Below, piece after piece: positions 34,696 to 35,959 of a stretch of 64,000 bases of DNA. Made by a program: the position numbers and the translations under genes. Where the stretch lies: the NCBI GenBank assembly GCA_024697625.1, contig JAILFJ010000113.1, positions 62,001 to 126,000 of the forward strand, in the 5' to 3' direction. The stretch is from Oscillospiraceae bacterium (GTDB lineage Bacteria; Bacillota; Clostridia; Oscillospirales; Oscillospiraceae). The notes under the pieces were generated by a model, which saw nothing but the letters and a program-made list of their open reading frames with translations, made no database searches and was not told the DNA's origin. Each line of letters starts with the position of its first letter. The stretch's first letter is position 1.

Positions 34696-34724
34696 ATCAT
34701 AACATTCTTTTCCTGAAATGACAA
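34696..34724 (-). promoter_or_regulatory. Promoter of the membrane protein/GDSL hydrolase pair
   Basis: TTGTCA (34724-34719), 17 bp, TATGAT (34701-34696). It is back to back with the aromatic transporter promoter, the two -35 boxes being eight bases apart. Confidence 0.7.
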
Positions 34725-34732
34725 GTGCGCGC

Positions 34733-34761
34733 TTGACTTTAGTACCAAAAAGTGCTAAAGT
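34733..34761 (+). promoter_or_regulatory. Promoter of the attenuated ABC importer operon
   Basis: TTGACT (34733-34738), 17 bp, TAAAGT (34756-34761). The predicted transcript starts near 34768, about nine bases before the leader-peptide ribosome-binding site. Confidence 0.8.
34736..34761. promoter_or_regulatory. Dyad operator between the -35 and -10 boxes
   Basis: ACTTTAGTAC (34736-34745), six bases, then GTGCTAAAGT (34752-34761): 10-bp inverted arms with one mismatch filling the promoter spacer. A repressor bound here would block polymerase. The regulator is not identified in this window. Confidence 0.65.
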
Positions 34762-34789
34762 GACATCACTCTTAACGGGAGGCACATCC

Positions 34790-34849
34790 ATGAAAGTCAG
34801 ACTCTATGCTGCATACCGCTTTTTCTATTACTTTACCGAGTCAAAGTAA
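34790..34849 (+). CDS. Tyr/Phe-rich attenuator leader peptide
   Basis: This short gene encodes MKVRLYAAYRFFYYFTESK, 19 residues with four Tyr and three Phe and no Trp, His or Ile. The codons for F-F-Y-Y-F occupy 34820-34834. The ATG is seven bases after GGGAGG (34777-34782), so it is well placed for translation. The stop TAA lies in the 3' arm of a hairpin whose 5' arm contains the Tyr/Phe codons. The peptide itself is expected to have no function beyond sensing charged tRNA-Tyr and tRNA-Phe, as in the pheA and trp leaders. Confidence 0.85.
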   Translation: MKVRLYAAYRFFYYFTESK

Positions 34850-34923
34850 TAGAAGTTTGTGTTGCACGAGGTTCTGTTTTCATACGCACAGCCGCACGGA
34901 CTTCGCCGGGCGGTTTTTGTTTT
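34823..34923 (+). promoter_or_regulatory. Transcription attenuator with pause, antiterminator and terminator hairpins
   Basis: Three structures can be read. (1:2) TTCTATTACTTT (34823-34834) pairs perfectly with AAAGTAATAGAA (34843-34854). (2:3) GAAGTTTGTGTTGC (34852-34865) pairs with GCCGCACGGACTTC (34891-34904) with three G-U pairs and one mismatch. (3:4) CCGCACGG (34892-34899) pairs with CCGGGCGG (34906-34913) with one mismatch and is followed by TTTTTGTTTT. 2:3 and 3:4 exclude each other. A ribosome stalled on the Tyr/Phe codons would favour 2:3 and read-through; one reaching the stop would cover strand 2 and favour termination. Confidence 0.85.
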
Positions 34924-34955: not shown

Positions 34956-35915
34956 ATGAAAAAGACCATCGCCATTCTCTGCACCCTCGTCATGCTCTTT
35001 GCTGCCTGCGGTTCGGTTTCCGCCTTTGCCGCCGACGGCCAGTACAGCGTCGGCATCTGCCAGCTCGTGCAGCATCCCGCTCTCGACGCCGCAACCCAGG
35101 GCTTCATTGACGCGCTGACCGAAAAGCTCGGTGACAGCGTCACCATTTCCAATCAGAACGCCGCCGGCGACTCCGCCACCTGCGCCACCATCGTCGGCAC
35201 CTTCGTCTCCGACGAAGTGGACCTGATCATGGCCAACGCCACCCCGGCCCTGCAGGCCGCGCAGGCCGCCACCAATCAGATCCCTGTTCTCGGCACCTCC
35301 ATCACCGAGTACGGTGTCGCTCTGGATCTGGATGACTTCAACGGTGTAACCGGCATCAACGTCTCCGGCACCTCCGACCTCGCTCCCCTGGACGGTCAGG
35401 CCGACATGCTGGCCGAGATCTTCCCCGATGCCAAGACCGTCGGTATTCTCTACTGCTCCGCTGAGGCCAACTCCAAGTATCAGGTAGAGACCATCACCCC
35501 GTTCCTGGAGGAGAAGGGCTACAAGGTCAACCCCTATACCTTCACCGACTCCAACGACGTCTCCGCCGTGACGCAGAATGCCTGTGACGACTGCGACGTG
35601 CTCTATATCCCGACCGACAACACCGCCGCTTCCTGTGCCGAGGCGATCAACAACGTCGCCCTGCCCGCCGGGATCCCCATCGTCTGCGGTGAGGAGAACC
35701 TCTGCGCCGGCTGCGGCTGTGTCACGCTCTCCATCTCCTACTATGACATCGGCTACGCCACCGGTCTCATGGCTTATGAGATTCTCGCCAACGGCGCGGA
35801 TGTCTCCGCCATGCCGATCGAGTATGCGCCCCAGTTCGTCAAGGAATACAATGCCGCAAACTGCGAAGCGCTCGGCATCACGGTTCCTGAGGACTATGTC
35901 GCCATCGAGGCCTGA
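34956..35915 (+). CDS. ABC importer substrate-binding protein, TrpX-like
   Basis: This 319-residue secreted protein has a signal peptide that contains a possible lipobox (LFAAC), then a periplasmic-binding fold of the DUF534/TrpX type (SVGICQLVQHPALDAATQGFIDAL, ANATPALQAAQAAT, VLGTSITEYG, VGILYCSAEANSKYQVE). Relatives in streptococci import tryptophan. Here the Tyr/Phe-rich leader suggests tyrosine and/or phenylalanine as ligand; that is inference. The ATG at 34956 follows GGAGG; the ATG at 34941 would contain that site. Confidence 0.9.
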   Translation: MKKTIAILCTLVMLFAACGSVSAFAADGQYSVGICQLVQHPALDAATQGFIDALTEKLGDSVTISNQNAAGDSATCATIVGTFVSDEVDLIMANATPALQAAQAATNQIPVLGTSITEYGVALDLDDFNGVTGINVSGTSDLAPLDGQADMLAEIFPDAKTVGILYCSAEANSKYQVETITPFLEEKGYKVNPYTFTDSNDVSAVTQNACDDCDVLYIPTDNTAASCAEAINNVALPAGIPIVCGEENLCAGCGCVTLSISYYDIGYATGLMAYEILANGADVSAMPIEYAPQFVKEYNAANCEALGITVPEDYVAIEA

Positions 35916-35931: not shown

Positions 35932-35959
35932 GCCCGTTCCCTGCGGGGAACGGGCATTT
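35932..35959 (+). terminator. Intercistronic hairpin after the substrate-binding protein gene
   Basis: GCCCGTTCCC (35932-35941) and GGGAACGGGC (35946-35955) enclose a tight loop and are followed by ATTTTG. It probably acts as a partial terminator or 3' stabiliser that raises binding-protein mRNA over the transporter genes, as is common in ABC operons. Confidence 0.65.

Follow-up and report, generated by a model that had tools for sequence, protein, structure and literature searches.

A putative Tyr/Phe leader-peptide attenuator before a TrpXYZ-type importer in an Oscillospiraceae bacterium, and its relatives on DAHP synthase operons

The 64,000-nucleotide stretch of Oscillospiraceae DNA analysed here (the window) carries at 34733-34923, as read by eye, a promoter, a leader gene rich in Tyr and Phe codons, a 1:2 hairpin, an antiterminator and a mutually exclusive terminator, followed by the genes of an ABC importer. 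With high confidence, we interpret this region as a trp/pheA-type transcription attenuator that works through the translating ribosome and would sense charged tRNA-Tyr (probably also charged tRNA-Phe) and control a probable tyrosine importer. The enterobacterial trp, pheA and pheST leader attenuators consist of a leader gene with control codons and three pairings, 1:2, 2:3 and 3:4. The region in the window resembles them in its control codons, its three pairings, a stop codon in region 2 and an intrinsic terminator. It differs in its lineage, in the targets of its family (an importer and DAHP synthase) and in having at least as many Tyr as Phe codons in the importer set of leaders described below.

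All elements lie on the plus strand. The promoter (34733..34761; −35 TTGACT and −10 TAAAGT with a 17-nt spacer) was read by eye and scores 9/12 in a promoter scan. The Shine–Dalgarno sequence GGGAGG (34777..34782), also read by eye, precedes a leader gene of 19 codons (34790..34849) encoding MKVRLYAAYRFFYYFTESK, with four Tyr and three Phe residues, which has Tyr/Phe-rich counterparts in relatives. The 1:2 (protector) hairpin (34823..34854), identified from sequence, fold and covariation, covers the F-Y-Y-F codons and the stop and is a perfect 12 bp helix between TTCTATTACTTT (34823-34834) and AAAGTAATAGAA (34843-34854); the TAA stop (34847-34849) lies inside its 3′ arm. Each of these elements, from the promoter to the hairpin, was found as the original prediction had described it. 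Region 2, the 5′ strand of the antiterminator (34852..34865; GAAGTTTGTGTTGC, with the conserved core GTTTGTG.TGC), is defined by the alignment and by 2:3 covariation, and region 3, the 3′ strand (34891..34904), by the 2:3 pairing analyses. The 14-nt antiterminator pairing claimed earlier holds at 13 of 14 positions; it includes three G-U pairs and is interrupted by one T/C mismatch. Region 3 is also the 5′ arm of the intrinsic terminator 3:4 (34891-34914), which continues into the U-run TTTTTGTTTT to 34923 and is placed by sequence, fold and covariation. This mutually exclusive terminator is present as predicted, with one A/G mismatch in its stem, which is probably why it was not listed by a mechanical terminator scan of the window. 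The 157-nt transcript has a folding energy of −48 kcal/mol, compared with −35.6 ± 3.45 kcal/mol for 200 dinucleotide shuffles (z = −3.59). Judged by this z-score and by recurrence with covariation in relatives, the anatomy exceeds what chance would be predicted to give. No tRNA genes were found in the window.

From these parts and their conservation, which are read directly in the DNA, we infer an order of events, an inducing amino acid and a layer of repression at the promoter. With ample Tyr and Phe, the ribosome would reach the TAA inside region 2 and cover the start of the antiterminator strand; with this start covered, 3:4 would form and transcription would end after about 157 nt. A ribosome stalled on the Tyr/Phe codons would leave region 2 free to pair with the emerging region 3, allowing read-through into the importer genes. 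If the leader were not translated, the 1:2 hairpin would sequester part of region 2 and the switch would be off. A repressor acting at a palindrome in the promoter would form a second layer.

Conservation of the leader had been set beforehand as a test, and both the peptides and the alternative pairings are kept in relatives. The importer binding protein was matched in 37 of 60 relative genomes. Among 30 importer loci inspected, reading identified a Tyr/Phe-rich leader before the binding-protein gene in 18 (L001-L003, L005-L010, L014, L016-L021, L023 and L030, where L001 is the window itself and L008 and L009 were taken by reading since the leader filter misread both). A leader is also present in L015, where the contig end cuts the locus before the −35. 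L012 and L022 are cut by contig ends, L024-L029 belong to other families and have no leader, and L004, L011 and L013 have the promoter palindrome without a leader. A second sample comprised 67 named orthologue loci, mostly gut and rumen MAGs of Oscillospiraceae, Ruminococcaceae or Clostridia and including several of the same genomes as the first; the nearest by identity are L090 (91%) and L062 (87%). The leader filter, which required SD-like start sites, passed 38 of these loci, and 33 were counted after leaving out L115, L123 and L124 (judged false) and L076 and L097 (uncertain); about half of the 67 are without a leader by this filter. In total, 80 leaders were extracted, 44 before importers and 36 before aromatic biosynthesis genes. 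Set statistics keep the original labels (importer set, 43; aro set, 36), under which L061 counts in the aro set though its gene is an importer.

The window and the 80-leader set show a short leader ORF, a Shine–Dalgarno sequence and a cluster of control codons, from which translation is predicted. Tyr and Phe together make up 36.5% of residues in the 43 importer-set leaders and 37.1% in the aro set, compared with 6.9-14.3% in the other two frames; the ORFs were picked partly by their Tyr/Phe count, which biases these percentages upwards and affects the contrast between frames less. The importer set has 21.5% Tyr and 15.0% Phe, and the aro set (36 distinct leaders, L061 included) has 18.1% Tyr and 19.0% Phe; read in the other two frames, the same stretches give 0.4-4.7% Tyr and 6.5-11.2% Phe. 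Trp accounts for 0.1-0.2% of leader residues. Single changes are synonymous in 2160 cases and non-synonymous in 1829 in the importer set (1300 and 1769, respectively, in the aro set). In L105, L108 and L113 the importer is preceded by variant leaders that end in ...FARRFYYYYF and have both the ATTTGTGCTGAC motif and the terminator altered, and the switch logic looks to be kept there despite the differing motif. In L076, L093, L097 and L101, the importer is preceded by Tyr-rich ORFs with terminator-like hairpins after them, unmatched at E ≤ 0.001 by model R1, built from importer leaders; these ORFs are possibly independent leaders.

The covariation analysis proposed with the original prediction finds covariation in all three helices, that of 2:3 over 71 leaders and not within the 17 importer leaders of the first alignment (A1, which leaves out L015, L021 and L143). 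In these 17 leaders, 94.1% of the cells of the 1:2 and 3:4 helices are paired (85.2% when shuffled; at most 62.9% in slid controls), and double changes occur at 12 of 20 pairs compared with 7.7 when shuffled, a value that none of 500 shuffles reaches. A model built from these leaders matches 77 of 84 chosen loci at E ≤ 0.001. In the resulting 77-leader alignment, which was fitted to the structure and hence leans towards it, 92.5% of cells are paired (80.6% shuffled; slid controls at most 61.7%) and 19 of 20 pairs show double changes. The 2:3 helix is paired in 98.8% of cells in the 17 importer leaders (23.5-55.3% in slid controls) and shows one double change, which 160 of 500 shuffles also reach; covariation is absent there because the helix is too conserved. 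Over 71 leaders, 439 of 568 cells of the extended 2:3 helix pair; when partners were re-dealt 300 times, the mean was 365 and the maximum 381. Double changes score 6224, compared with a mean of 1755 and a maximum of 2380 in 60 re-deals. This test placed simple anchors on 71 of the 80 leaders (nine were unusable) with relatedness left in; some anchors are misplaced, which lowers the observed value, and the 3′ anchor was picked for maximal pairing, which raises it. At the level of sequence, the attenuator helices appear clearly to be under selection.

Equilibrium folding was a weak test of the switch: a ribosome stalled at a Tyr/Phe codon brings the terminator probability below 0.5 for only 47 of 302 such codons in the importer set and 16 of 307 in the aro set, and for no Tyr/Phe codon of the window. 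The terminator dominates at equilibrium at most stalls, and the model therefore needs kinetic, co-transcriptional folding. The equilibrium test was replaced by folding before region 4 is made; L038, for which no terminator was found, was omitted from the folding tests and from the 2:3 covariation. In the co-transcriptional model, the antiterminator occupancy in the importer set is 0.76 with the ribosome stalled at a middle Tyr/Phe codon and 0.57 with the ribosome at the stop, and is higher when stalled in 34 of 43 leaders (p = 1.8e-7). The corresponding values for the aro set are 0.75 and 0.44, higher in 31 of 36 (p = 5.1e-8); since the sequences are related, both p-values are nominal. A 15-nt ribosome footprint gave the same picture. 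The mean z relative to dinucleotide-shuffled spacers is 1.2-1.3, with 20 of 43 leaders in the importer set and 15 of 36 in the aro set scoring above 95% of their 40 shuffles. In the window, the occupancy is 0.94 when the ribosome stalls at Y6-Y9 and 0.34-0.48 when it stalls at F11-F15; it is 0.64 with the ribosome at the stop, and free RNA gives 0.12. The F11-F15 stalls lie below the stop value, and the single-sequence model of the window is therefore not decisive.

The genes that follow the attenuator were assigned by family search as a substrate-binding protein (PF04392, TrpX-like; 34956..35915, +), a permease (PF02653; 35982..36929, +) and an ATPase (PF00005; 36922..37716, +). The three families together mark a predicted importer of the TrpXYZ type, and the original prediction of a TrpXYZ-like importer was correct. 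Spacing and strand suggest that the three genes form one operon, and permease and ATPase genes follow the binding-protein gene in 55 of the 57 named loci whose flank is long enough. A strong 10-bp terminator-like hairpin lies between the binding-protein and permease genes (35932-35955, +), and possibly gives more binding protein than permease. A gene for a YbaK/PrdX-like aminoacyl-tRNA editing domain (PF04073; 37716-38270, +) directly follows the ATPase gene; it occurs downstream of the importer in none of the 57 named loci and is probably a neighbour by chance.

The original prediction gave the substrate as tyrosine and/or phenylalanine, and our analysis supports this and narrows it towards tyrosine. 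Scored against the TrpX (tryptophan) equivalog NF041285, the binding protein reaches 222.4 bits, under the cut-off of 390, and a paralogue in the same genome, which lies behind a T-box with a UGG specifier, reaches 200.7 bits, also under the cut-off. The best solved homologue is CD0873 of C. difficile (PDB 6HNI; E = 1.3e-49). According to the accessible part of its description, CD0873 binds tyrosine, with selectivity set by Glu-263, which bonds the tyrosine hydroxyl, and Tyr-279; at the same two positions a Phe binder has Ala/Tyr and a Trp binder has Ala/Gln (PMC6816091). Glu246 and Tyr262 of the window protein align with Glu-263 and Tyr-279, so that the two proteins have both selectivity residues in common; regulation is not discussed in that part of the paper. 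In 99 aligned rows (relative and named loci, two others and the window, with duplicate genomes present, the window included twice and L083 absent, presumably through the length filter), the pocket pair is Glu/Tyr in 95, Asp/Tyr in two (L128 and L118) and Ala/Tyr in one, and one sequence (L122) is incomplete. The Ala/Tyr row is the UGG T-box paralogue from the window's own genome (31% identity); a Phe-binder-like pair behind a UGG T-box means that the two-residue rule is not perfect. On the basis of the pocket residues and of the Tyr T-boxes carried by two orthologues, the substrate of the importer is likely to be tyrosine.

Firmicute amino acid operons are usually assigned to T-boxes, and T-boxes also occur on importers related to the one in the window (each specifier was identified by eye downstream of the GAA motif). 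The orthologous importers L028 and L117, from other lineages, carry a T-box with the specifier UAC (Tyr). At L118 (1939-4940), a TrpXYZ-like operon lies behind a UUC (Phe) T-box, and after it comes a further binding-protein gene with a tyrosine-type pocket; the binding protein behind this T-box has the Asp/Tyr pair. Paralogues in G008, G012 and G014 have the specifier UGG and that in G024 has UUC. The paralogous TrpX-like importer of the window's own genome (contig C143; L189 1-640) is under a T-box with the specifier UGG (Trp), so that one genome has two paralogous importers with two tRNA-charging sensors, a Trp T-box and a Tyr/Phe leader. T-boxes were matched at E ≤ 0.001 in all 40 near genomes, above the cut-off in 35 of the 40 and four times in the own genome; the lineage has therefore not lost its T-boxes. 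With orthologous importers carrying either a Tyr T-box or a Tyr/Phe leader, the replacement of one tRNA sensor by another is directly testable.

An attenuator that responds mainly to Phe, or to aromatic amino acids in general, is a possible but unlikely alternative to a sensor centred on Tyr; its Tyr codons would reflect an origin on an aro operon, the products of which include both amino acids. The leaders do mix the two (four Tyr and three Phe in the window; at least three Phe in 27 of 43 importer-set leaders), the L118 importer locus carries a Phe T-box, and the stalling model does not discriminate between Tyr and Phe (mean 0.76 for both in the importer set). However, Tyr outnumbers Phe in 29 of the 43 importer-set leaders and the reverse holds in six, the pocket residues are those of a tyrosine binder and two orthologues have Tyr T-boxes. 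We therefore favour charged tRNA-Tyr as the main signal.

The promoter contains a palindrome that had gone unnoticed in the original prediction. In the window its arms, ACTTTAGTAC-N6-GTGCTAAAGT, extend over the −35 and −10 and are complementary at nine of ten positions; in importer promoters, the −35 and −10 are overlapped by ACTTTAGCAC-N6-GTGCTAAAGT. A divergent promoter-like site on the minus strand (34696-34724, −; 10/12) adjoins the importer promoter and the palindrome. A promoter with a 17-nt spacer was found for 40 of 43 importer-set leaders, and at least seven of ten arm positions are complementary in 32 of these 40 (mean 7.80); the aro set has two such promoters out of 30, with a mean of 3.27. 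When arms are swapped between promoters the mean is 7.62, which shows that the arms are conserved and do not covary. The palindrome also stands before the leaderless importers of L004, L069, L070 and L082 (L004 and L069 probably represent one genome) and before the aro leaders of L186, L187 and L055. From its place and conservation, it is a probable repressor operator. As a regulon finder it was rejected: the own genome has one place with at most three mismatches, compared with four per strand for the reversed control, and there is no excess in 37 genomes (12 sites, compared with 14 for the reversed-pattern control), although ten of the 12, when sorted by place, stand before an importer or an aro leader.

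TrpR-family genes occur in 20 of 25 genomes, and the window's own genome has two (L238 2182-2511, −; L237 2672-2980, +). One of these is beside his genes, as judged by eye. Around the other, the 5.5 kb examined contains neither an aromatic neighbour nor a site resembling the palindrome. This second gene is a lead for the repressor of the palindrome. Such a repressor could in principle be the main control, with the attenuator contributing little, and the frequency of the palindrome in the importer set, its presence at leaderless importers and some aro leaders and the placing of ten of its 12 sites would fit this. We nevertheless consider it improbable, as palindrome counts do not exceed those of the reversed control, the arms do not covary, no repressor was found among the TrpR-family genes examined and the attenuator helices show clear signs of selection.

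Two further alternatives to a leader-peptide attenuator fare worse. The leader might encode a small functional or membrane peptide, with the terminator tuning only basal expression; the peptides are hydrophobic and aromatic and start at SD-like sites (which the filter required), but they differ in length, in their termini and even in the frame that runs through the GTTTGTGCTGC region, while the Tyr/Phe content and the three helices are kept, and we regard this as very unlikely. A metabolite riboswitch or T-box with an accidental short ORF is hardly credible: T-boxes on related importers do make an RNA sensor expected at such a place, but no Rfam family reaches its gathering score in the window, the only matches at E ≤ 1 in nine leader loci were to FMN and SAM riboswitches, all outside the leaders, and none was to a T-box, and the Tyr/Phe richness is confined to one frame.

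Sequence comparison makes the putative importer switch one member of a larger family, the main predicted target of which is DAHP synthase. Model R1 has matches in 40 of the 394 order genomes scanned and in 19 of 40 near relatives. In the own genome it matches twice, in the window and at C24:37552-37669, where the leader MNFCFSASYYYYFTGFSR precedes an aro operon starting with DAHP synthase (483.6 bits, cut-off 335). The second protein of this operon is prephenate dehydrogenase-like (154 bits, under the cut-off of 295), and further ORFs were recognized by eye as aroB, aroA, aroC, aroE/K and aroQ. Within loci of about 3 kb, DAHP synthase is present in 27 of 30 from the order and 12 of 23 from near relatives, and the importer in two and ten, respectively; prephenate dehydrogenase alone occurs in none of either, and one locus in each sample has none of the three query proteins. 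At L061 (G379:C1:1925377-1925532), in another genus of the family, the leader MKFAASANLYFGYSYFYFYFAKVKAICDAQQRKSA stands before an importer binding protein of 62% identity; the importer switch is therefore not confined to one genus.

Parts of this picture have precedents. The uORFC-13-1 motif before aroF is described from Acholeplasma and environmental DNA (24 sequences; PMC8632094), and two Tyr/Phe uORFs before shikimate genes are reported, with Clostridium novyi among five genomes (PMC6429828). Both share with the present family a Tyr/Phe uORF before shikimate genes, and uORFC-13-1 also has a terminator and the idea of attenuation; in the accessible parts of these two papers, which were compared by text and not by alignment, no importer is named. 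A His leader before hisS in Bacilli, described as replacing T-boxes (PMC2965389), and a Leu leader before S. aureus ilv (PMC5794164) are, as far as the accessible texts go, likewise Firmicute leader-peptide attenuation, for other amino acids and genes. The S. suis trpXYZ operon, in the part of its description available, has a Trp T-box with a UGG specifier and concerns tryptophan (PMC9382623); it encodes a homologous type of importer under tRNA-charging control, whereas the window has a leader peptide and probably tyrosine. The accessible text of a 2005 comparative paper places no Firmicute aminoacyl-tRNA synthetase gene under classical attenuation (PMC1262725), and that of PMC11109978 contains no Tyr/Phe motif. 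The mechanism is classical, and Tyr/Phe uORFs before shikimate genes are, on the accessible text, already published (PMC6429828, PMC8632094). Of the novelty claimed in the original prediction, the part concerning the mechanism in Firmicutes falls with the published His, Leu and Tyr/Phe leaders, and the part concerning the importer stands within the literature examined: no description of a Tyr/Phe leader on such an importer was found in the open-licence literature. As far as that literature was searched, the importer target, the extent of the family and the swap with T-boxes are new.

A broader reading, to which we give even chances, is that a large uncatalogued family of Tyr/Phe leader attenuators may be a main tRNA-charging sensor for aromatic supply in Clostridia. 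It would be ancestral on DAHP synthase operons, and ruminant-gut Oscillospiraceae would have gained a copy on a tyrosine importer. At this same importer, exchanges with Tyr/Phe T-boxes would have taken place in sister lineages, and in this genus the attenuator would sit as a further layer on an aromatic repressor operator. The arrangement would then reproduce, as a whole, the logic of operator plus attenuator known from the E. coli trp operon. Our results also allow a substrate to be predicted for an unnamed clade of importers, and they add a sizeable family undetected by the Rfam release searched.

The family is seen across the order and class of the window. Model R2, built from the 77 leaders, matches 40 of 391 class genomes and 11 of 398 phylum genomes at E ≤ 0.001, with the own genome in both samples; strict filters and even sampling make the counts from the R1 and R2 scans lower bounds. 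Of 39 class/phylum loci of about 3 kb, 30 contain DAHP synthase, none contains the importer and one contains prephenate dehydrogenase alone; eight have none of the three query proteins. By the filter, 32 of the 39 have a Tyr/Phe ORF, and 29 of these have DAHP synthase; the other three are L211 (prephenate dehydrogenase), L203 and L229 (judged to be chance). L204 has DAHP synthase and no leader that passes the filter. Seven of the eight loci without query proteins have no convincing leader either and are probably chance matches. The eighth is L203 (G725:C1:147735-147881), where the leader is MIQLSLVFAFIYFYFYFYFINEVRVICDANNR and the next ORF, as judged by eye, resembles chorismate mutase/prephenate dehydratase rather than DAHP synthase.
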